This document shows positions 8,182 through 36,865 of a stretch of 45,225 bases of DNA, piece by piece. A program made the translations under genes and the position numbers. Below the pieces are notes generated by a model. It did no database searches. It was not told the origin of the DNA and was given only the letters and a program-made list of their open reading frames with translations. The DNA is from an uncultured Verrucomicrobiota bacterium (GTDB taxonomy: Bacteria > Verrucomicrobiota > Verrucomicrobiia > Palsa-1439), in NCBI GenBank assembly GCA_903825435.1, contig CAIKAP010000109.1, forward strand, positions 1-45,225, given 5' to 3'. Each line of letters begins with the position of its first letter. The stretch's first letter is position 1.

Positions 8182-9637
8182 ACGAGACAGAGACAGAGGC
8201 CCAAAGGTCCCAAGAATCCCGAAAGAACACCTACCGGCCGATATTCCCGAGCCGGACGAGGTGATGACGGCGGCCACAGCAACCACTGCACCGCCCGTAC
8301 CGGTCAGCCAGCTTCCGTGCACTCTGCCGTCGGAGACACCGGTGGAGGGACAGGACATACCGAAAGTGGAATTGCCGCCGGGCGAGACGATGTATCTGGG
8401 CGATTTGCAGGCGATGAGCATGGCGGACCTGCAGCAGAAAGCGCGCACTTGGTGCGTGGAAGGTATCGCAGTCCTCAAGAAACACGAGATCATCTTCGAC
8501 ATCCTCAAGAAGAACGCACTGCGTAACGGCTCGATGTTCGGCGACGGCGTGCTGGAGGTGTTGCCCGATGGGTTTGGCTTCCTGCGTTCGCCCGCCTACA
8601 ACTACCTGCCTTGCCCCGAAGATATTTACGTGTCGCCCTCGCAGATCCGCCGGTTCGAGTTGCAGACCGGCGACGGGATCTCCGGCCAGGTCCGTCCGCC
8701 GAAGGACAAGGAACGTTTCTTCGCGATGCTCAAGGTGGAGACCGTCAACCACGAGAGTCCGGAGAAGGCGAAAGAGAAAGTCATGTTCGACAATCTCACG
8801 CCATACTTCCCGACATCGCGGTTCATCCTAGAAACGAATGCCGAGGAGGTCAACACGCGCGTGCTCGACCTGTTCTGTCCCGTCGGCAAAGGCCAGCGTG
8901 GCCTCATCGTCGCGCCGCCGCGCACGGGCAAGACGATCCTGCTCCAGAAAATCGCCAACGCGATCATCCACAACAATCCCGAAGCCATCGTCATCGTGTT
9001 GCTCATTGACGAGCGCCCCGAGGAAGTGACCGACTTCAAGCGGACCGTCAAGGCCGAGATCGTCAGTTCGACCTTCGACGAACCGCCCGAACGCCACGCG
9101 CAGGTCGCCGAGATGGTCCTCGAAAAAGCCAAGCGCCTCGCAGAACACAAGAGGGATGTCGTCATCCTTCTCGACTCCATCACCCGGCTTGCACGCGCCT
9201 ACAACACGCTCGCCCCGCACAGCGGCAAGATCCTCTCCGGAGGCGTCGACGCCAACGCGCTCCACAAACCAAAGCGTTTCTTCGGCGCCGCCCGCAACAT
9301 CGAGGAAGGCGGCTCGCTCACGATTATAGCAACTGCGCTCGTGGACACCGGCTCGCGCATGGACGAAGTCATTTTCGAGGAGTTCAAGGGCACCGGCAAC
9401 ATGGAGTTGTGTCTCGACCGCCACCTCGTGGACAAACGCATCTTTCCGGCCATCAACATCGAGAAGAGCGGCACCCGCAAGGAGGAGTTGCTCTACCATC
9501 CCGAGGAGTTGAACCGCATCTACATCCTCCGCAAGGCCCTCGCCGGTGTGCCGCCGGTGGAGGCGATGGAATTGATCGTTGAGAAACTCAAGAAGACCAA
9601 GTCTAACGCCGAGTTCCTGCTCTCAATGAAGTTCTGA
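8159..9637 (+). CDS. rho: Transcription termination factor Rho
   Basis: 492 aa hexameric RNA-dependent ATPase that ends transcription at unstructured C-rich RNA. Residues 1-80 are an Arg-rich then Pro/Thr-rich, probably disordered extension not found in E. coli Rho. A Rho-N helical domain follows ('[20 protein letters not shown]'), then a cold-shock-like RNA-binding domain with '[15 protein letters not shown]', then the RecA-like motor: P-loop '[11 protein letters not shown]', '[13 protein letters not shown]', Walker B '[16 protein letters not shown]', Q-loop region '[43 protein letters not shown]' and C-terminal 'IYILRKAL'. All key motifs are intact. It starts inside coaE, so its translation is coupled. 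Confidence 0.97.
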
Positions 9638-17804: not shown

Positions 17805-20675
17805 TCATCGCCTCTCTGGCACGATGCAATCTTCCGTCACCAGCTTGCTCGCGTCGGGATAACCGGTCGGAATGCCGGGCGCGGTGACGGGGTGACCGGC
17901 TTCGATCTTACCGGCGACGGCGAGGTTCAGGGCCAGCAGTTGGGCGAGTAAATCTTGTTTCGGGTCGAAGCCGTAGGCGGCGAGGACAGCGGCATCGAGG
18001 GCGGCGTGGGCGTCTTTCAATGGATTGGCGCCGGGCAGTTCCAGCGTCCGGTAGAGCGCGCGCAGACCGCCTTTCAACTTCGTCAACGCCTCCGCCCGGA
18101 TGCGCCGCACTTCCCGGCCCGCCGCCGCCACCGCGGCGATCTGTTGCGCCGTCGGCGTCTGCGGCCACGGGAACGTGTCGAAAACGGATTCGGGCGTGTA
18201 GCGGAAATCGGATTTGAACTTGCTGCACTTCGTCACGAACCAAAGCCAGTGCGCGCTCGATTGCAGGATGCCGAAACTGTAATCGTCGGCGAGGACGAAC
18301 GCCTCCAAGGTATGGTCGGGGCGAATGTCGGGATGAACGAAACAGAAGATGGGGCGCTTGGTGACTTCGCAGCAAGCGAGGTAGCGCGGCAGTTGGCGCA
18401 CGGCGTCGATGAGTTCTTTCCGGCAGCGGAAATGTTGCCACCACGTCTTCAGCCATTGCTGATCTTGACCGGTGGCTTTGCCGGACTTCGTCTGCTCGGC
18501 TCCGGCCATCCCCATGATGTGCGGCAACACCGTCTGCTCGACATGGCGAAACGGCGCTTCGTACCGGTGTGCTTCCAGTAGATTCATTTTCTGGAAGTCG
18601 ATCACCCAGCGTTGCGGCGCGCCATGGACGAGCATCTCCGCCCCGATAAAGAACGGATGCACGACCTCACGATTCGCGGGGTCTTTGGCGATGAGTGCCT
18701 GCGCTTGCGATGGCTCAAGAACAAAACCATGATGGCGCGGGAATTGTCCGTTGTAAATGCACGGCGGCTCGATGTTGCACTTGAGGACTATAGCCCCGGC
18801 AACATCGGTTTGATCGGAGAGCGCGGAATTGATGACGGCGCATTCGTGGCAATCGAGTTCGTAAGTCTTGTCGGCACGAACGCCTTTCGTGTGTTTGCTA
18901 CTGCCTTGCACTTTGAACCAGAGGCGGCGCGTTTTCGGCAGGAGCGCGGCGTCTTGCGTCTTGATCCAGTTGACGATCGAGACGTGGACGTTGGCTTCGC
19001 CGGACCACGGCTGGTTGTCCACGGCTTCGACAATCGTGCCGGTTTTGACCACGTGGTCGAGGCCGCCGACGCGGGATTGGTTGTTGCGGACGTTTTGCGT
19101 GCCGACCAGCCCGGCGCGGCCAGCGACGGGATCGGCGACGGTGCAGGCCGGCAGGTGGTCGTGCGCTTTGCGGAACCAATAGACGCAGTAGTCAGCCATG
19201 CCGGGCACGGCGGGATAGGCGGCGCGCACCTTGTTGACGTAGTCGGGACCGTGTTGCGGTTTGAGCAGCTTGGCGCCGATGAACGGCGGGTTGCCGATGA
19301 TGACATCGACTTTCGGCCAGTCGGTGAACAGCGCATCAGCGCAGCGGAAATTGGTGTCGAGATTGTCGAGCGGCAAATCCGGCTCGGAGATGTGGAGTTC
19401 CTCGATGGCGAGCTTGCGCCCGATCATCATCGTGACCTTGGCCAGTTCGACGGCGAGCGGGTTGATGTCGAGGCCGAAGAAATTTTGGGCGCTGAGGAAA
19501 CTGAGTTGGCGCTGGTCCGGCTCAGCGCGGCTGGGGAATTCGGTGTTGATGCGGTCCACGATCCGGGCTTCGAGGCGTTTGAGTTCGCGGTAGGCGATGT
19601 AGAGGAAGTTGCCGGAGCCGCAGGCGGGATCGAGGACGCGGAAGTTGTGGAGCCGCTCGCGGAGTTCGCCAAGCCGCTTGAGGGTCTTGGCGGATTCAAT
19701 CTGATCGCGCCACGGCTCGACGATGGTGGGCCGGACGATTTTCATGATGTCCACCGGCCGGGTGAAATGCTGGCCGAAGGCGCGGCGTTCGTCGGTGCTT
19801 TGCTCGAAGAGCGTGCCGAAAATTTCCGGTTGAACCTTGGACCAGTCGGCCTTGGCGAGTTCGCGGAACGCGACGATTTCGGTGTCGGTCAACTCGATGC
19901 GGGCGGGCTGCGCGAAGAGGCCGCCGTTGAAATAGCGGACGCCCTTGAACCGGCCGCCGCTGACCGGCGGGGTGGTGTTCATCGCGGCGAACAGGTCGCC
20001 GAGGAGGTTGTAGGAATGCGCGGCAGGGTTGCACTGGTCTAGCAGTTCAGTGAGAAAGTATTTGGGGAGCAGGTCGATGTCTTCGGCGAAGAGCGAGAGG
20101 AGCATCTGGAGCGTGAAGCGTTGCGCGAGCACCGGCTCGACACCGCGTTTGACCATGCGCTTGTGAATATCGGCAAGCTTACCGGCGGCTTGGCGCGTGA
20201 CGGATTCGTGGTCGTTGCCGAACACCGGCTGGTGCTGGTCGCCGTACAGAAATGCCAGCGGCCCCCAACGCTCCGCCAGTTCCGCCGTCTTGACGGTGTC
20301 TTTCGGCGTGTACGGTTGCGTCTCGAAGTCGTAGACCCAAAACTCGTCGAAGTTGCAGAGGACGACGTAGCGCGGACGGTTCGGGTAGAGGTTCCACCAG
20401 TAATCCTTCGCCTGATTGTAATGCTTCTCCAGTTTCTCGCCGCGCGATTTCATCTCGAACAGCGTGTGTCCCGGCCAAGCGAAGTCCGCGAACTTCGTGT
20501 GCCCATCCGTCATCCGAACGCGATACTCGAAGCTCGCACCAGAAGGTAGCTTGCCGCCGTGACCGAACACCGCGAGCAGATTCAGCAGGAACGGCTGCGC
20601 CTCGCCTTTTTCGTCGCCGGTGACGCTTTGCTGAACCCACGACACGAACTTGGAAAGCGTATCCTTGTCTGGCAT
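17805..20675 (-). CDS. Single-chain restriction-modification enzyme (MmeI-like, fused nuclease and N6-adenine methyltransferase)
   Basis: 956 aa. The N-terminus carries a PD-(D/E)XK-type motif, D64 ... E74-M-K76 in 'FADFAWPGHTLFEMKSRG', with 'NQAKDYWWNLYPNRPRYVVLCNF' after it. SAM-binding motif I 'FRVLDPACGSGNFLYIAYRELKRLE' is near residue 345, and catalytic motif IV 'NPPFIGAK' near 459, the N-P-P-F form of amino-methyltransferases. The C-terminal ~350 residues ('YSFGILQSSAHWLWF...FDTFPWPQTP') form the target-recognition and end region. The order nuclease-methylase-recognition in one chain is that of MmeI-like type II enzymes. The start is supported by AGGTG upstream. A broken copy of its end lies at 14463. 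Confidence 0.88.
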   Translation of the reverse strand: MPDKDTLSKFVSWVQQSVTGDEKGEAQPFLLNLLAVFGHGGKLPSGASFEYRVRMTDGHTKFADFAWPGHTLFEMKSRGEKLEKHYNQAKDYWWNLYPNRPRYVVLCNFDEFWVYDFETQPYTPKDTVKTAELAERWGPLAFLYGDQHQPVFGNDHESVTRQAAGKLADIHKRMVKRGVEPVLAQRFTLQMLLSLFAEDIDLLPKYFLTELLDQCNPAAHSYNLLGDLFAAMNTTPPVSGGRFKGVRYFNGGLFAQPARIELTDTEIVAFRELAKADWSKVQPEIFGTLFEQSTDERRAFGQHFTRPVDIMKIVRPTIVEPWRDQIESAKTLKRLGELRERLHNFRVLDPACGSGNFLYIAYRELKRLEARIVDRINTEFPSRAEPDQRQLSFLSAQNFFGLDINPLAVELAKVTMMIGRKLAIEELHISEPDLPLDNLDTNFRCADALFTDWPKVDVIIGNPPFIGAKLLKPQHGPDYVNKVRAAYPAVPGMADYCVYWFRKAHDHLPACTVADPVAGRAGLVGTQNVRNNQSRVGGLDHVVKTGTIVEAVDNQPWSGEANVHVSIVNWIKTQDAALLPKTRRLWFKVQGSSKHTKGVRADKTYELDCHECAVINSALSDQTDVAGAIVLKCNIEPPCIYNGQFPRHHGFVLEPSQAQALIAKDPANREVVHPFFIGAEMLVHGAPQRWVIDFQKMNLLEAHRYEAPFRHVEQTVLPHIMGMAGAEQTKSGKATGQDQQWLKTWWQHFRCRKELIDAVRQLPRYLACCEVTKRPIFCFVHPDIRPDHTLEAFVLADDYSFGILQSSAHWLWFVTKCSKFKSDFRYTPESVFDTFPWPQTPTAQQIAAVAAAGREVRRIRAEALTKLKGGLRALYRTLELPGANPLKDAHAALDAAVLAAYGFDPKQDLLAQLLALNLAVAGKIEAGHPVTAPGIPTGYPDASKLVTEDCIVPERR
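17995..18178 (-). repeat. Direct repeat copy B (restriction-modification 3' end)
   Basis: The partner of 14641-14832 in the same orientation, inside the intact gene. It is far more similar than the flanking homologous sequence, which suggests recent duplication or gene conversion confined to this block. Confidence 0.8.
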
Positions 20676-23334: not shown

Positions 23335-24570
23335 TCACGGCCTGTCACTACTCGGACTGCCGCCTTCTCCTTGCCCCTTTAAGGCTTTGGTGGCGATGTC
23401 ACTGAGACTCTTGATCAGTTCCTTCAGTTCTTTGGCAAAGTCGCCGGAAAGAATCGCGGCCATGGTGTCGTCGTTCCAATTCCGGCGCTGAATCCAATAC
23501 GCCGACGCGGGCCAGTACTTGTTGGGGGGATCCAGGCTGAATTGCGCCTGGCTGAATTCCGCCCTAAAGAGCCGGTCAATCTGCGAGTTCAATGGGCTCT
23601 CTTGATCGTGGTCAATGGAGGCGAATCCAATGAAACAATCGCGGTAGTCTGAGACTCCGCACCCGAAGCCAAATTTCAAGTTCTGGGCCTTGAGATCAGG
23701 GGTCGTGAGAAGGCATTCTTCATCCTTATCTCCGTTACCTGAGAGTTTGTCCACCATCTCCAAACCAAGTTCTTGCGCGATAGGTTGCAATTGTTCATCC
23801 AACTTGGCAACGATCGCTTTTCGGATTTCCCAGTTTACATTTCGCAGGTTGGCATAGGCCAAATAGGTTTCCCCAGACTGGTCCTGGGTGACTGCGTTAA
23901 TAATTTCTTGGTTCATACGTGTGCTCGTGTTTTGTTGGGTGAGGCGTTTGATGAGGTGGATATATTGGGTGATGGCCTCCCGCACGCCGGGCGCGGTGGC
24001 GGCCTCTTTGCGGCATGCTTCCAACCATCGCACAATGTTGGTCTTGTAGGAAACTTTCTGGAAGACCTTATTAAATGATTCGATTTTGTAGGCGGGATTC
24101 GTTGCCCAGTCTGCTGGGTCATCATTGTACAAAGTCAGGAACAACAGATGGGCTTCGGGTTTATCCTCATGGTAGCGTCCTAATTGATTTTCCTGTAAGC
24201 CGGCGTAAATCTTGTTCTCGATGAAAATGGAGCGGCGTTTTCCGTCGATTATCACAATATCGAGGCGACCAAGCTCGCGGATGGAAACTTCAGTGTCCAC
24301 CTTGGCCGATTCGGCGTCGAAATCGTCGATTTCAAGCTCGGTGAGGAAACGCTCCAAAAAGACGGCTCCCTGTCCGTGTGATCCTTTGGGATTGAGAAGC
24401 TCCGCCAGCATCGGCGAGTGGGTGCGAACCTCGTAATGTCCCACATGGAGAATATCGAAGAGGTTGAACCGTTCGCCGGTGGCCTTAGTCAGCGCCTCTT
24501 CATAGCGGCGAATAGTTCCTGCCAAGGAGAGCAGGTGCCGGCCGCGCGTCTGGAGGTTGACATCGCTCAT
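23335..24570 (-). CDS. PD-(D/E)XK nuclease family protein
   Basis: 411 aa. The nuclease core is at about residues 85-135: D104 in 'GRLDIVIID', E118 and K120 in 'SIFIENKIYAG', then 'QENQLGRYHED' (Q-x3-Y helix). This is the pattern of the PDDEXK_4 group, often found as a lone gene in defence or mobile regions. 'HSPMLAELLNPKGSHGQGAVFLERFL' upstream of the core is also characteristic. The C-terminal half (about 220-400) has no motif I recognise and may recognise the target. The start overlaps the hicA stop by four bases, so it is expressed with the toxin-antitoxin pair. Its role as a defence effector is inferred from location. Confidence 0.8.
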   Translation of the reverse strand: MSDVNLQTRGRHLLSLAGTIRRYEEALTKATGERFNLFDILHVGHYEVRTHSPMLAELLNPKGSHGQGAVFLERFLTELEIDDFDAESAKVDTEVSIRELGRLDIVIIDGKRRSIFIENKIYAGLQENQLGRYHEDKPEAHLLFLTLYNDDPADWATNPAYKIESFNKVFQKVSYKTNIVRWLEACRKEAATAPGVREAITQYIHLIKRLTQQNTSTRMNQEIINAVTQDQSGETYLAYANLRNVNWEIRKAIVAKLDEQLQPIAQELGLEMVDKLSGNGDKDEECLLTTPDLKAQNLKFGFGCGVSDYRDCFIGFASIDHDQESPLNSQIDRLFRAEFSQAQFSLDPPNKYWPASAYWIQRRNWNDDTMAAILSGDFAKELKELIKSLSDIATKALKGQGEGGSPSSDRP

Positions 24571-25103: not shown

Positions 25104-30356
<5,253 letters not shown>

Positions 30357-30423
30357 AGTTGCCGGGCCACTGTAATCAAAATGACTTGCCTCCGCCACCG
30401 GCAAAGATGAATCTGACGGCGTC

Positions 30424-31302
30424 ATGACAATTGGACGGCTCGCTCCCACGCCCAGCGGCGGATTGCACCTCGGCAACGCGCGCACGTTTCTCGTCGCGTG
30501 GCTCTCGGCGCGCGCGGCGGGCGGGCGTGTGAAACCGGGTTACGTCGAACAGGCGCTGGAGGACTTGCGCTGGCTCGGTCTCGATTGGGACGGCGAGCCG
30601 CTTTACCAAAGTTGTCGTAGCGACGCGTACGCGGCAGCGCTCGAAAAACTCCGTGTCGCCGGGCTGGCGTATCCGTGCGTTTGCAGCCGACGCGAAATCG
30701 AGTTGGCCTCGCGCGCGCCGCACGCGGGCGAGGATGAGCCGGTGTATTCGCGCGTGTGCCGGGGAAAATTCCGGGACGCGTCGCACGCGCAAGAATGTTC
30801 CGGCCGTGTTCCGGCTTGGCGGTTCGCGGTGCGCGACGAGGAACGGAGTGTCGCGTTTGACGATGCGTTGCACGGTCGCTGCGAATTTGGCGTGGATGAC
30901 TTTGTGATTTTCCGCAACGACGGCGTGTCGGCGTATCAACTCGCGACGGTCGTGGACGATTATTTTCAGGGCGTGACGGAAGTGGTGCGTGGCGATGATT
31001 TGTTACGCTCGACGGCGAGGCAGGTGTTGTTGTTCCGGGCGTTGAATTTACCGGTGCCAAAATTTTTACACGTGCCGCTCGTGCTCGACGCGACGGGCGA
31101 GCGGATGGCGAAGCGGCGCGATTCGGCGCGGCTGGCGGCGTTGCGCGAGGCCGGTGTTGCAGCGGCGCGTGTTGTCGGCGCGCTGGCGGCGAGTTGCGGT
31201 TGGGCGAAACCCGGTGAGTGCGCGATGCCGAAGGAGTTGGTTGGGCGATTCAATCTGGCGGTGTTGCCACGCGAACCGGTGCGGATTACACTCGGCGCAT
31301 GA
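30424..31302 (+). CDS. gluQ: Glutamyl-queuosine tRNA(Asp) synthetase-like protein with an internal deletion
   Basis: 292 aa class I synthetase core without an anticodon domain. 'GRLAPTPSGGLHLGNARTFLVAWL' is the HIGH-type ATP site, C85-x-C87 ... Y108-x3-C112 the zinc site of GluQ proteins, 'VVDDYFQGVTEVVRGDDLL' the conserved core, and 'GERMAKRRDSARL' the KMSKS-type loop. GluQ attaches glutamate to queuosine in tRNA(Asp). The usual '.vLRiEDlD..R' segment after 'ARAAGGR' is missing: residue R35 runs straight into 'VKPGYVEQALEDLRWLGLDWD', a loss of about 12 residues without a frameshift. Activity is doubtful. It starts 67 bases from the divergent uvrA start and overlaps the next gene by ATGA. Confidence 0.85.
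   Translation: MTIGRLAPTPSGGLHLGNARTFLVAWLSARAAGGRVKPGYVEQALEDLRWLGLDWDGEPLYQSCRSDAYAAALEKLRVAGLAYPCVCSRREIELASRAPHAGEDEPVYSRVCRGKFRDASHAQECSGRVPAWRFAVRDEERSVAFDDALHGRCEFGVDDFVIFRNDGVSAYQLATVVDDYFQGVTEVVRGDDLLRSTARQVLLFRALNLPVPKFLHVPLVLDATGERMAKRRDSARLAALREAGVAAARVVGALAASCGWAKPGECAMPKELVGRFNLAVLPREPVRITLGA
30796..30813 (+). repeat. TGTTCCG-N4-TGTTCCG direct double motif, copy 2
   Basis: Two exact TGTTCCG heptamers with an 11-base period inside gluQ; encodes 'CSGRVP' at about residues 125-130, in the same reading phase as copy 1 ('CSGNVP'). Confidence 0.8.
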
Positions 31303-33629
31303 AGACTCTGAGTTTGTTGGCGTGCTTGTTGTCGGTTTCTTGTCTGGCGGTGGAGTGCAATGTCGTAGTGCTCGGCAGTAGCGCTTTCAGTTCAGAATCA
31401 CCTGTTATTCCTGTCGGGAGTGACGCGTACCGAATGTGGGAGCGTTGGCCTATCCAACGCATTGGGGTGCGGGCTTACATGCGCAGCACCTACGATCGCA
31501 GAGGTGGAAATGATTTTGCTGACGCGAGCCACTTTCTTTATCAGTTGACTGATGATTTCAACGTGTCGCTGGATGTCGCGGGGCCGGGCGTGCTTTACTT
31601 CACTCGCTTCAACCACTGGCATGGCAGTCCGTGGCATTTCGAAGTAGATGGCGTGGACCACATCGTACGCGAAACGGGCACAGCCAACCCAGTGAATGCC
31701 AAGAAAACCCTCACGAAAACTGTTTTTATTCCCGAAGCTCTTTTCCTCAATCCACTCACATGGACTTGGTCTACTACCAAAGGAGCCGACCTAATATGGG
31801 TGCCTGTGCCATTCGAGAAATCATTCCGCATGGCCTATTCTCGGACCCATTACGGCACCGGCTACTATATTTACCACCAGTTTGTCTCTGGAGCGCCGTT
31901 GTCGCGGCCAATCCAGTCTTGGGACGGCAAAACGCCACCGGACCGCGACGTGTTGGAATTAACCGCACGCTCCGGCACGGACCTCGTACCGCACGACAAA
32001 TCACCCGAAGGCCTTCGGATGGAGTTGAGAGAGCAATTCGGTAGCGTCACGTTGCCCGCGCAACAAGCCGTGACGGTTTTGGATCTGACGCAAGCACCGT
32101 CAACAATCCGTACTTTGGAATTTGACGTGCCACGGGAGCAAGCGTTGGCGTTTGGTCGCGCTACGCTGCGCGTGACATGGGACGGACGGTCCGAACCATC
32201 TATCTCTGCACCCGTGGCGCTGTTCTACGGCGCCGGCACGCTGTACAACCGGGACAACAAGGAATACCTGGTCAAGGGTTTTCCCGTTTACATCCGTTAC
32301 ACGGACAAGCGGGTGCATCTCGCCTGCTTCTTCCCGATGCCGTTCAGGCGGTCGGCGCGCGTGGAACTGGTCAACCCGGCCGGCAACGCCATCACGGACA
32401 TTCAGTGGAGCGTGCGTTCTCAGCCCTGCAAGGAGACGGCCGTCTATCTCGGGTTTTTTCACGCGAACTACCGAGACCACCCTAATCCTAAGCGTGGTAA
32501 AGATTTGGTCTTGCTCGATACGCGAAAAACCGAGGGCGGCGGCGATTGGTCTGGTAGTTTCGTGGGCACTTCTTTCATTTTTTCCGACCGGGCGGCACTT
32601 GGCACTCTCGAAGGCGACCCACGATTCTTCTTTGACGACAGCCAGACCCCGCAAGCGCAAGGAACCGGTACCGAGGAATGGGGTGGTGGCGGCGATTACT
32701 GGGGTGGCTTGAATATGACGTTACCATTCGCCGGCCATCCCGTCGGTGCAAGATCGGCAGACACAGCGGTGTGCGACGAGGACAAAATCGAGTCGGCTTA
32801 CCGGTTCCTCCTCGCGGACCTTATGCCATTTGGAAAGAACGCCTTGATCTGTCTTGAACACGGCGGAGAGAATCAGTCCACCGATCATTACCAAACGGTA
32901 ACCTATTGGTATGGTCGCCCCGGTGCTACGCTCGTTAAGACTGATGAGTTAAAAATCGGAGACGCTACCAGTGAAGCTGCCCACCACTATGTCTCGCCGC
33001 AGGCGTCTGATCCCTACGAGATTACTTCACGCTACGAATGGGGGCCGGATTCCTACAAGCAGGGCAGGGACAAGTCGTCCAACGCCACATGGCCAAAGAG
33101 TACGAGTGCCAACGGTGCGGTGGAAGCCAGCGGCAAATACAACGCACCTCCGGTCACGACGGTGGTAGAGATTTACCCCGCGCACACCGATCGCGGCCGC
33201 AAGACCACTGGTACTTCAGAATTCACTCTCCGTCTCGATCCGCGGAACCGCGGCGTGATGTTGCGTCGTAAACTCGACTACGCATTCCCTAACCAACGGG
33301 CGGAAGTATTCCTCGCTGATGAAACGGGTAGCGATTGGAAATCAGCCGGCGTCTGGTATCTCGCTGGGGCCAATACTTGTGTCTTTTCGTCTCCTAGCGG
33401 CGAACTCGGGGGTGCCCAGCACATTGTGCAGACATCGAACCGCCGCTTCCGCGACGACGAGTTTCTCCTGCCACGCAAACTCACCGACTGCCGGAATGCG
33501 ATCCGAGTTCGCGTGAAGTTCACACCTACCAATATTTCTCTCTTCCCTGGTCGCCCGCTCGATGAGCAGGCATGGAGCGAAATCCGTTATGATGCTTATT
33601 GCTGGGTGCTTGATACAAAATCACAATAA
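31299..33629 (+). CDS. DUF2961-family secreted protein (probable carbohydrate-active enzyme)
   Basis: 776 aa from the ATG at 31299, which overlaps the gluQ stop (ATGA) and begins a signal peptide ('MKTLSLLACLLSVSCLAVEC', possibly a lipoprotein). 'FTRFNHWHGSPWHFEVDGVDHIVRE', 'YFPMPFRRSARVELVNPAG'-like strands and 'QGTGTEEWGGGGDYWGG' near residue 450 fit DUF2961 proteins ('GTGTED...G.w.f'). Characterised relatives include glycoside hydrolases acting on difructose/fructan-type or arabinan substrates; the substrate here is unknown. The C-terminal third looks like a beta-sandwich ('RDKSSNATWPKSTSANGAVEASG...'). Coupling to gluQ looks incidental. Confidence 0.75.
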   Translation: MKTLSLLACLLSVSCLAVECNVVVLGSSAFSSESPVIPVGSDAYRMWERWPIQRIGVRAYMRSTYDRRGGNDFADASHFLYQLTDDFNVSLDVAGPGVLYFTRFNHWHGSPWHFEVDGVDHIVRETGTANPVNAKKTLTKTVFIPEALFLNPLTWTWSTTKGADLIWVPVPFEKSFRMAYSRTHYGTGYYIYHQFVSGAPLSRPIQSWDGKTPPDRDVLELTARSGTDLVPHDKSPEGLRMELREQFGSVTLPAQQAVTVLDLTQAPSTIRTLEFDVPREQALAFGRATLRVTWDGRSEPSISAPVALFYGAGTLYNRDNKEYLVKGFPVYIRYTDKRVHLACFFPMPFRRSARVELVNPAGNAITDIQWSVRSQPCKETAVYLGFFHANYRDHPNPKRGKDLVLLDTRKTEGGGDWSGSFVGTSFIFSDRAALGTLEGDPRFFFDDSQTPQAQGTGTEEWGGGGDYWGGLNMTLPFAGHPVGARSADTAVCDEDKIESAYRFLLADLMPFGKNALICLEHGGENQSTDHYQTVTYWYGRPGATLVKTDELKIGDATSEAAHHYVSPQASDPYEITSRYEWGPDSYKQGRDKSSNATWPKSTSANGAVEASGKYNAPPVTTVVEIYPAHTDRGRKTTGTSEFTLRLDPRNRGVMLRRKLDYAFPNQRAEVFLADETGSDWKSAGVWYLAGANTCVFSSPSGELGGAQHIVQTSNRRFRDDEFLLPRKLTDCRNAIRVRVKFTPTNISLFPGRPLDEQAWSEIRYDAYCWVLDTKSQ

Positions 33630-33903: not shown

Positions 33904-34632
33904 ATGGAATCCGACTACAAAGTCAAACTGGATGTGTTCGAGGGACCTCTGGATCTGTTGCTCTACCTCATTAAGAAAGAAGAGGTGGACATCTACGATA
34001 TTCCCATCGAGCGGATCACCAACCAGTACATGGAATACCTCTCGCTGATGCAATTGCTAAACCTCGAAGTCGCCGGGGAGTTCTTGGTGATGGCGGCGAC
34101 GCTGATGTACATCAAGAGCCGGATGCTGTTGCCCGCCGACCAGCAGGTCACTGACGCCGAGGCCGAGGAGGGCGAGGACCCGCGCTGGGAGTTGATCCGG
34201 CAGCTCGTCGAGTACAAGAAGTTCAAGGAAGCCGCCGTCCAGCTTGCCCATCGCGAGGAGGAACAGTCGAAATTGTTTACCCGCACCGGCGACAGCGGAA
34301 TCGAAGTCGAGGCGAAGGATGTGCCGCTGGCCGAGGTCAGCATCTTCGATTTGATCGCAGCGTTCAACGAGGTGCTCAAGAAGGCGAATGCCCGCGAGGA
34401 CTTTCACGAGATTTACGAGGAGCGGTTCACTGTTAGCGACAAGATCGAGGAAATCCTCTATACTCTGCGAGAACGTTCGGCAATCGGGTTTCTGGAACTG
34501 TTTTCCGAGACCGCGAGCCGCGTCGAGGTGGTGGTGACGTTCCTGGCGTTACTGGAATTGATCCGGCTAAAACGACTGCGCGTTCGCCAGGAATCGGCGT
34601 TCGGTGAGATCAACGTGGTGAAAGTATCATAA
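33904..34632 (+). CDS. scpA: ScpA, kleisin subunit of the SMC-ScpAB condensin
   Basis: 242 aa from the ATG at 33904; 'MESDYKVKLDVFEGPLDLLLYLIKKEEVDIYDIPI' is the classic ScpA start (an in-frame ATG eight codons earlier is less likely). 'EFLVMAATLMYIKSRMLLP' follows, and the C-terminal winged helix 'FLELFSETASRVEVVVTFLALLELIRLKRLRVRQE...GEINVV' binds the SMC head. It links the SMC heads and organises chromosome arms. Its partner scpB normally follows directly; here two unrelated genes (34652-36175) lie between them. Confidence 0.95.
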   Translation: MESDYKVKLDVFEGPLDLLLYLIKKEEVDIYDIPIERITNQYMEYLSLMQLLNLEVAGEFLVMAATLMYIKSRMLLPADQQVTDAEAEEGEDPRWELIRQLVEYKKFKEAAVQLAHREEEQSKLFTRTGDSGIEVEAKDVPLAEVSIFDLIAAFNEVLKKANAREDFHEIYEERFTVSDKIEEILYTLRERSAIGFLELFSETASRVEVVVTFLALLELIRLKRLRVRQESAFGEINVVKVS

Positions 34633-34651
34633 ATAGTTAAGAGGTAATTTG

Positions 34652-35392
34652 ATGAAAACGCTAATTATAATAATTGGACTCCTACTCATATTGTTCACTG
34701 ACGCTAGAGCTAAGGATCTCGAAATCGAACTGGAACCAGCATGGGAAAAGACCGCAGTTTACTTCGAAGGAAAAAGTAACTTACCGGAGGGAACGCAGCT
34801 GGACCTTGTACTCTTCCGCAGTGGCAAAAAGACGGCCGTTGGTGGGGATGCGTATGTGGTGATTCGCAATCAGAAGTTCAAGAGCAAGAGTTTCGTGGGC
34901 AAGGAAGCTCCCTTGCAGGGCAAGTATCGAGTTCGATTAATGGCGTATTTTTCGAACAAGCAACTGGGAGACTATTCAAGCCCCTACCTCAAATTGGAAA
35001 ATCCCGACCTCGTCGATTCAGACAAAGTATTTCATTACGAGAAAGAGTTCGATCTGCAACCAAAGATAGACGAGGCTGAGACAGCAATACAAATAGTGAA
35101 AGGGTTCTACCTCGTCCGAGACGGCAAAAAGTCGGCTTGGACAGTCGCGAAATCTCTGGATGATTTCGTTGAGGGGTTAGAGATCGGGGTGGGTAAATCT
35201 AACGTAAAGCGGAGCGGCTGGCGGGCTGTACCTGTTGAAGGCAACAGTGGTGTCTATAACGTCTATTATACGTATGACTATGTGGAAAAGCCCGCCGCCC
35301 CAAAGCACTGCGAATCGTGGTTTGAGTGTGACGTTACAGCTAAACAGGTGCGATGCAGAAATAAAGCGGCCTACGATGGATGGGTTCAGTAG
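34652..35392 (+). CDS. Secreted protein of unknown function, AT-richer than neighbours
   Basis: 246 aa from the ATG at 34652, with GAGGT eight bases upstream. Signal peptide 'MKTLIIIIGLLLILFTDARA'. The mature part is beta-rich: 'KTAVYFEGKSNLPEGTQLDLVLFRSGKK', 'KYRVRLMAYFSNKQLGDYSSPYLKLEN', and later 'GWRAVPVEGNSGVYNVYYTYDYV' with a C-terminal Cys pair (C in 'HCESWFEC', and 'VRCRN'). I do not recognise a family. Codon use is clearly less GC-rich than in scpA and scpB on either side, which suggests acquisition. It begins 19 bases after the scpA stop. Confidence 0.7.
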   Translation: MKTLIIIIGLLLILFTDARAKDLEIELEPAWEKTAVYFEGKSNLPEGTQLDLVLFRSGKKTAVGGDAYVVIRNQKFKSKSFVGKEAPLQGKYRVRLMAYFSNKQLGDYSSPYLKLENPDLVDSDKVFHYEKEFDLQPKIDEAETAIQIVKGFYLVRDGKKSAWTVAKSLDDFVEGLEIGVGKSNVKRSGWRAVPVEGNSGVYNVYYTYDYVEKPAAPKHCESWFECDVTAKQVRCRNKAAYDGWVQ

Positions 35393-35410
35393 ATCTTTGG
35401 TTTCAACCAA

Positions 35411-36175
35411 ATGCCGATGAACACGATCTTGGAGATTCTAGACGAGCGCGATCCATACGAGAATCTGCATCTACTCGCGCTTGGTACAATCGGGCACTTG
35501 CGATGTGGCGACTGTGGACACATTCATAACGACTGGGATGACCGAATGCACATGCCCTGTCCAACTTGCGGTGTCATGTGTGAGTGTAGGGAGGTTTTTT
35601 TCGCCAACGGCGAACACTGTTTGTTAGAGGCGATCTTCGAATGCTACCTAAGCAAGGGTTCACGGCAAGTTTGCATTGCGTTGTTTTGTGCCATGCTAGA
35701 ACAGCACTTGGAGAAGTTCTTGGTCAGTCGTTGTCGTCGTCTAGATATTGATTGGAAGAAAATTAGCGACCTTCTCAAAAAGAACTGGCTTGTCGGAAGT
35801 CGCTTACAGCTTTTTGAAAAGCTCTGCGGATGTTCACCCCAAGATGCGCTTGCCGGGACAAACGTGAGTCACTGTTTTTCAGAATACCGGAAGCTATCGG
35901 CAACAAGAAATAGAATTGTACATGGCAAACCAAATATCGGATACATGGTCAACGACGAGGAAGTGCGTACGGCTGTCAAATTGGCCACGGATTCGTTTTC
36001 AGCCTTTACATTTCTTCATAACACGTATTGTTCTGTAAACGCGGTTTTGCTCTCGACAGAATTATTAGACGAAGTCCTCTTGGTAAGAGCGGCAATTGAG
36101 ACAGTGCCTAAGCGAAGCGAAAGGCTTCGGCCCAGTCAGACAGAGATTCTTCGCTGCGCTCAGAATGACAAGTGA
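35411..36175 (+). CDS. Unknown protein with zinc ribbon and HEPN-like motif
   Basis: 254 aa. N-terminal zinc ribbon: C32-x2-C35 ('RCGDCGH') and C50-x2-C53 ('PCPTCG'). The rest is helical ('RQVCIALFCAMLEQHLEKFLVSRC', 'WLVGSRLQLFEKLCG') and contains R166-x4-H171 in 'SATRNRIVHGKPN', the R-x4-6-H pattern of HEPN domains, many of which are RNases in toxin-antitoxin or defence systems; others are non-catalytic. The order 'Y.kl...RN.ivHG' is typical. The last ~22 residues ('KRSERLRPSQTEILRCAQNDK') come from a dispersed-repeat-like sequence. AT-richer than its neighbours and wedged between scpA and scpB. A function in RNA cleavage is only a possibility. Confidence 0.6.
   Translation: MPMNTILEILDERDPYENLHLLALGTIGHLRCGDCGHIHNDWDDRMHMPCPTCGVMCECREVFFANGEHCLLEAIFECYLSKGSRQVCIALFCAMLEQHLEKFLVSRCRRLDIDWKKISDLLKKNWLVGSRLQLFEKLCGCSPQDALAGTNVSHCFSEYRKLSATRNRIVHGKPNIGYMVNDEEVRTAVKLATDSFSAFTFLHNTYCSVNAVLLSTELLDEVLLVRAAIETVPKRSERLRPSQTEILRCAQNDK
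36108..36174 (+). repeat. Repeat-like sequence forming the 3' end of the HEPN-like gene
   Basis: CCTAAGCGAAGCGAAAGGCTTCGG followed by a segment with arms ATTCT ... AGAAT around TTCGCTGCGCTC, ending AGAATGACAAG. This 'seRLRPsQTEILRCAQNDK' style ending is familiar from dispersed repeats in many genomes; it is read in frame into the stop codon here. Recognised by pattern only. Confidence 0.55.
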
Positions 36176-36187
36176 CGGAATAACAAC

Positions 36188-36865
36188 ATGACATTGGAAT
36201 TGAAACGAATCATTGAAGCGATGTTGTTCGCGGCGGAACGTCCGCTGACGACCAGGGAGATGCGTTCCATCTTCGCCGAGGCGACCGACGAGGAACAGCC
36301 CGGCGTGGCGGAGGCGTTTCGCAACGTGCGCGAGGCGCAGATCGTCGCCGTCCTGGAAGAACTCAAGATCGAACTAGAGACGCAGCCGCGCGCGTTCCAA
36401 CTCGTCGAAATCGCCGGCGGGTGGAGGCTGGTGAGCCGCGCCGAGTACGCGCCGTGGTTGAAAAAGCTGCTCGACGAAGCGCGCCCGCACCGGCTGTCGC
36501 AGCCGTCGCTGGAGACGCTTTCGATCATCGCGTTGCGCCAGCCGATTTCGCGTGCCGACATCGCCGCCATCCGCGGCGTCGAGGTGGACGGCGTGATCAA
36601 GACGCTTTTGGAGCGCGACCTCATTACCATCGTCGGCCGCAACGAAAGCGTCCTCGGCAAACCGCTCTTGTACGGCACGACGCAGCGGTTCCTGGAGCAT
36701 TTTGGCCTGCGCGGACTTGACGACATGCCGAAAGCCGCCGAGCTTCGCCTCCAAGCCGCGGCGTTGCGCACGGCGGAGCAGAAAGCGGAAGTGAAAAAGG
36801 AAGAACCGGCGGAAGCGAAAGCCATCCATGAAGAACAAGCTAAAGAACCTGCGCAGTCGAATTGA
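36188..36865 (+). CDS. scpB: ScpB, SMC-ScpAB condensin accessory subunit
   Basis: 225 aa. Tandem winged helices: 'LELKRIIEAMLFAAERPLTTREMRSIF' and 'HRLSQPSLETLSIIALRQPISRADIAAIRGVEVDGVIKTLLERDLITIVGRNESVLGKPLLYGTTQRFLEHFGLRGLDDMP', the highly conserved second half. It dimerises on ScpA and regulates SMC. The Lys/Glu/Ala-rich tail is not conserved. It overlaps pheA by 38 bases, so the two are coupled. The genes just upstream are foreign-looking and separate it from scpA. Confidence 0.95.
   Translation: MTLELKRIIEAMLFAAERPLTTREMRSIFAEATDEEQPGVAEAFRNVREAQIVAVLEELKIELETQPRAFQLVEIAGGWRLVSRAEYAPWLKKLLDEARPHRLSQPSLETLSIIALRQPISRADIAAIRGVEVDGVIKTLLERDLITIVGRNESVLGKPLLYGTTQRFLEHFGLRGLDDMPKAAELRLQAAALRTAEQKAEVKKEEPAEAKAIHEEQAKEPAQSN

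Follow-up and report, generated by a model that had tools for sequence, protein, structure and literature searches.

The window, that is the whole stretch of 45,225 nucleotides analysed here, carries the condensin genes scpA and scpB, whose identities are certain from profile matches to PF02616 and PF04079 (Table 1). As the sequence-only reading had pointed out, they are split by two genes running in the same direction: 1,555 bp (47% G+C) separate the end of scpA from the start of scpB and contain ORFs 34649-35392 (gene 1) and 35411-36175 (gene 2). Better starts are the ATG at 34652 for gene 1, with AGAGG upstream, and the ATG at 35417 for gene 2, where its relatives begin; the two genes lie 18-24 bp apart inside one insertion. 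Gene composition was compared by total G+C. Gene 1 (0.476, z about -3.2) and gene 2 (0.468, z about -3.4) have the lowest values of the window, whose 26 other genes average 0.590 (sd 0.036), and the AT-richness claimed for both is thus real.

Other features of the window include a MmeI-like restriction-modification enzyme (17805-20672), a PDDEXK_4 nuclease of lower G+C (23335-24567) and a 1,792-aa protein (25104-30482) that looks like a doubled UvrA, combining UvrA interaction and DNA-binding domains with several ABC ATPase stretches.

Table 1. Features at the scpA-scpB junction (window coordinates)
Feature	Position	Strand	Basis
scpA	33904..34632 (likely start 33904; ORF extendable to 33880)	+	PF02616 3.5e-41
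Inserted segment, about 1.55 kb	34630..36187	+	absent from G001 and remaining same-family genomes
Gene 1, secreted protein	34652..35392	+	Sec-type signal peptide (MKTLIIIIGLLLILFTDARA/KD) read from sequence
Gene 2, zinc ribbon + HEPN-like protein	35417..36175 (ORF from 35411)	+	relatives, model, fold comparison
Zinc ribbon CxxCGH...PCxxCG (C32, C35, C50, C53)	35504..35572	+	4 Cys invariant in 3 members
R166-N-R-I-V-H171, HEPN R-x4-H motif	35906..35923	+	R, H invariant in 3 members; end of predicted helix 155-171
Dispersed palindromic repeat, ~70 bp (pattern GTCACCCTGAGCGAAGCGAAGGGTCTC...GATTCTTCGCTKCGCTCAGAATGAC)	36104..36172	+	copy counts; full-length copies compared by eye
scpB, start codon kept	36188..36865	+	PF04079 4.8e-50; TIGR00281 above cut-off

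A clean insertion at the scpA-scpB overlap

We detected scpA in 10 of 11 same-family genomes, the source genome of the window included. The adjacency of scpA and scpB in relatives, which the sequence-only reading had proposed to check, was found: scpA and scpB share 4 nt (ATGA) in G001, of the same genus, and in six further genomes of the family (G003, G005, G006, G008, G009 and G010), and are separated by about 30 bp in G007 and about 75 bp in G004. Wherever the junction could be read in the family's other genomes, the site is either empty or holds only a short spacer. By blastn, G001 DNA aligns with the window at 85% identity up to 34625 and at 83% from 36186, the alignments stopping and resuming at G001 positions 9636 and 9638. 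Since G001 DNA aligns on either side and the genes of relatives overlap, the 1.55 kb was inserted in the window's lineage; the insertion is clean and lineage-specific, in an arrangement known from one genome.

The insertion at the overlap has left both condensin genes intact. The scpA stop is now TAA (tcaTAA), provided by the first bases of the insert, instead of the TGA overlapping scpB that junction comparison reveals in relatives. CAT is found at each edge (tCAT/aa ... aaCAT/gac), which is compatible with a 3-bp target duplication without proving it. The idea of a self-mobile element was rejected, as neither an integrase nor a transposase is encoded. Farther out in the class, other families usually have a scpA-scpB gap below about 350 bp, and no scpB could be detected beside scpA in G018 and G049, two genomes of one family; adjacency is therefore a strong tendency rather than a law.

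The upstream side of scpA is rearranged as well, since a DUF2961 gene (31218-33626) stands immediately upstream, in the place taken by trpS in several relatives and by another gene in G001. The bin contains a second trpS-scpA-scpB contig (L034; C74 of G000, 3245 bp), which shares 82-83% DNA identity with G009 and about 76% with the window and probably comes from a contaminating relative of another species.

Over its final ~70 bp the insert consists of a dispersed palindromic repeat, from which the gene 2 ORF takes its last ~20 residues (PKRSERLRPSQTEILRCAQNDK); this C-terminal tail is missing from the gene 2 relatives. The right half of the repeat occurs in 7 copies in the source genome, in 2-10 copies in each of six same-family genomes and in none of four genomes from other families. 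The palindrome (GTCAYCCTGAGCGAAGCGAAGGGTCTC...GATTCTTCGCTTCGCTCAGAATGAC) is thus dispersed in seven genomes of the family (loci L044-L073), and four of its typical half-sequences had no match in the papers searched. The ~75-bp spacer of G004 is another dispersed palindrome, present as repeat alone and without genes. That a different palindrome fills the same junction indicates that the site tolerates insertions and, together with the repeat at the insert edge, that repeats settle at this junction.

Gene 2 and its probable HEPN-like domain

Gene 2 has two relatives in other genomes of the class. One with about 40% identity (E=1.8e-45) was found in G013, and again on a verrucomicrobial contig from Lac Pavin (JAPLTX010000048.1). 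A second one, in G019, has 24% identity (E=2.2e-5 in a search by two-member profile; the match covers residues 22-146, leaving the motif region outside); the full G019 protein retains C-x2-C...C-x2-C, FC-x3-E and R-N-x3-H. The zinc-binding Cys, E97, R166 and H171 are invariant across the three proteins, in agreement with the zinc ribbon that had been read from the sequence. Short patterns and sampled genomes gave no relatives other than those of G013 and G019 among genomes, plasmids, phages and viral contigs. Matches limited to the zinc ribbon (E 0.004-0.1) were not accepted as relatives, and weak Pfam matches to herpes tegument and metallothionein were discarded.

The R-x4-H motif occurs once in gene 2, at 166-171 (RNRIVH). 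By itself it is weak, because shuffled gene 2 proteins contain any R-x4-H in 52% of cases and R[NDH]x3H in 9%; it is strengthened by its invariance in the two relatives and by the fold match. The R-x4-6H form that marks HEPN proteins is thus conserved across the three members, although identity falls as low as 24%. The residue following the Arg, polar (N, D or H) in HEPN proteins, is N in gene 2 and G019 and C in G013.

HEPN domains are defined by an R-x4-H that closes a helix and by an acidic residue, likewise conserved, in a long helix that precedes it (PMC3710099). The AlphaFold model of gene 2, built from two sequences, has a mean pLDDT of 57, rising to 70-78 over much of the helical core; in this model R-x4-H closes helix 155-171 and E97 lies within helix 82-110, both in agreement with that definition. 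The highest target TM-scores among the 50 PDB matches listed all belong to HEPN proteins: 2hsb (0.70, probability 0.96), 1wwp (0.49), 8xeh (0.43), 5yep (0.42) and 8xdj (0.42). None of the matches listed has E < 0.3. The profile search that had been suggested gave sub-threshold matches located at the motif, to HEPN RiboL-PSP for gene 2 (PF18735, E=0.069) and to the HEPN model CSX20 for the G019 relative (0.064); no curated HEPN model reached its cut-off with gene 2, and PADLOC gave nothing. Profile comparison of gene 2 with HEPN_RiboL-PSP placed R-x4-H in register, with a probability of 2.5%. Taken with the invariant R and H, the low-confidence model makes a HEPN-like domain around R166-H171 likely, as first suspected, and we consider a genuine HEPN fold quite probable.

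Gene 1 and the partners of gene 2

Gene 1 carries a Sec signal peptide, evident from its sequence, and gave no significant family match in Pfam, NCBIfam, PADLOC or PHROG, consistent with the secreted protein of unassigned family described earlier. No credible relative was found in 236 genomes of the class, plasmids or viral contigs. A match in G138 (E=0.003, 74 aa) was judged a chance one, being short and in a frame that overlaps a longer antisense ORF, and a structure search with the gene 1 AlphaFold model (pLDDT 41) returned no useful match. Because of the signal peptide, the product, if exported, would be no conventional cytoplasmic antitoxin.

The two genomes with gene 2 relatives, G013 and G019, gave no match to gene 1. 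In G013 the relative is followed after 3 bp by a gene for a 303-aa protein with an RNALLH motif and a sub-threshold match to an RT-associated HEPN model, and the two genes (L035:8539-10122) may be a tandem HEPN pair. A protein with a long stretch of short repeats (NGCSVGIHGYSVGAYEVCVG...) is encoded nearby (L035:10573-11511). In G019 the relative overlaps a predicted membrane protein gene by 4 nt and is flanked by two genes of sugar/lipopolysaccharide type (gmhB-like and kdsB-like, as read from sequence), so that it too sits among housekeeping genes. Since the partners of gene 2 differ in G013 and G019, the pair seen in the window is no conserved unit. Gene 1 is probably an unrelated co-passenger.

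Origin and possible role of the insert

Our preferred explanation, which we hold as a whole with reasonable though not strong confidence, is that the window's lineage, once separated from its same-genus relative, acquired an AT-richer segment of ~1.55 kb precisely where scpA and scpB had overlapped. This segment would have brought gene 1, for a secreted protein, and gene 2, for a cytoplasmic zinc-ribbon/HEPN-like protein, with the dispersed palindrome at its end. In the likeliest mechanism, the C-terminal helical domain of gene 2 would dimerise as HEPN domains do, creating an R-x4-H ribonuclease site that would cleave RNA without metal, with the zinc ribbon recognising RNA or gating the activity, upon stress or invasion. 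For RNase activity as such we see the chances as even; a role in defence appears possible, on the unlikely side. The promoter/terminator scan gave nothing above chance, so read-through from the scp operon would be the simplest supply, and constitutive expression from that operon is plausible.

The sequence-only reading had offered a toxin or defence pair as one possibility and a neutral passenger as another. In its fullest form the former would have an HEPN-like RNase and a secreted protein cooperate, for example by sensing at the envelope and cleaving RNA inside. The two genes share a strand, a short spacing and one insertion, and the restriction-modification gene and PDDEXK_4 nuclease lie 10-18 kb away; yet the signal peptide places the gene 1 partner outside the cytoplasm, neither gene matched PADLOC, NCBIfam or PHROG profiles significantly, the insert has no antitoxin-like or defence gene next to it, and the G013 and G019 copies neighbour other genes in genomes where gene 1 is unmatched. 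Such a module is improbable, and the pair is not supported. Of the two findings that were to weigh against it, no co-occurrence elsewhere and no HEPN fold, the former was obtained, whereas the fold comparison leans, at low confidence, towards HEPN. The earlier reading thus stands in part: for the insertion, its G+C, the secreted protein, the zinc ribbon and the HEPN-like domain, without the pair. An HEPN-like passenger is supported, and the insert is better described as a probable opportunistic passenger than as a demonstrated defence pair.

A strictly neutral passenger in a tolerant, well-transcribed gap, where neither protein is selected and the HEPN-like domain may bind RNA but be inactive, seems to us a minority possibility. 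It would fit an insert found in a single genome, a repeat running into the gene 2 frame, a G004 junction holding only a repeat and the lack of a visible dedicated promoter. Against it, both frames are intact, and conservation of catalytic-type residues and zinc Cys at 24-40% identity indicates that gene 2, at least, was under selection before its transfer. A contig misjoined at the dispersed repeat is very improbable: the multi-copy repeat at the right end and the second scpA contig of the bin would allow it, but no repeat at the left junction (scpA-gene 1) exceeds the length expected by chance, the exact 25-mer is single in the genome and both flanks are 83-85% identical to G001.

The preferred reading, an acquired segment with an HEPN-like gene 2, makes the locus a natural clean case in which foreign genes have opened a condensin operon with translational overlap and left its genes intact, and points to a small zinc-ribbon/HEPN family missed by current HEPN and defence models; otherwise the insertion is ordinary genome flux. 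A bolder proposal, which we regard as rather unlikely, is that gene 2 represents a small Verrucomicrobiota family, as yet undescribed, of stand-alone zinc-ribbon/HEPN RNases, travelling as a short mobile cassette and acting as RNA-targeting immune or stress effectors without a dedicated antitoxin. Its members would enter tight housekeeping arrays, with varying partner genes, and use the promoter of the host operon.

Among known systems, HEPN toxins of HEPN-MNT toxin-antitoxin pairs (8xeh, 5yep, 7bxo, 8xdj) have a helical bundle that is among the best fold matches of gene 2, whereas gene 2 bears a zinc ribbon and adjoins gene 1 and scpB instead of an MNT nucleotidyltransferase antitoxin. Some DUF4145-type HEPN proteins (PF13643) are joined to a zinc ribbon (PMC3710099 Table 1), as is the HEPN-like domain here; in contrast to them, gene 2 has no PF13643 match at E<=1 and no restriction-modification gene adjoins the insert. 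Compared with the Ribo L-PSP-HEPN branch (PF18735), gene 2 scores 13.5 against a cut-off of 28.4 bits and has an N-terminal zinc ribbon without L-PSP fusion, but resembles it in R-N-x3-H followed by G at a helix end and in an all-helical domain with an acidic residue in an earlier long helix.
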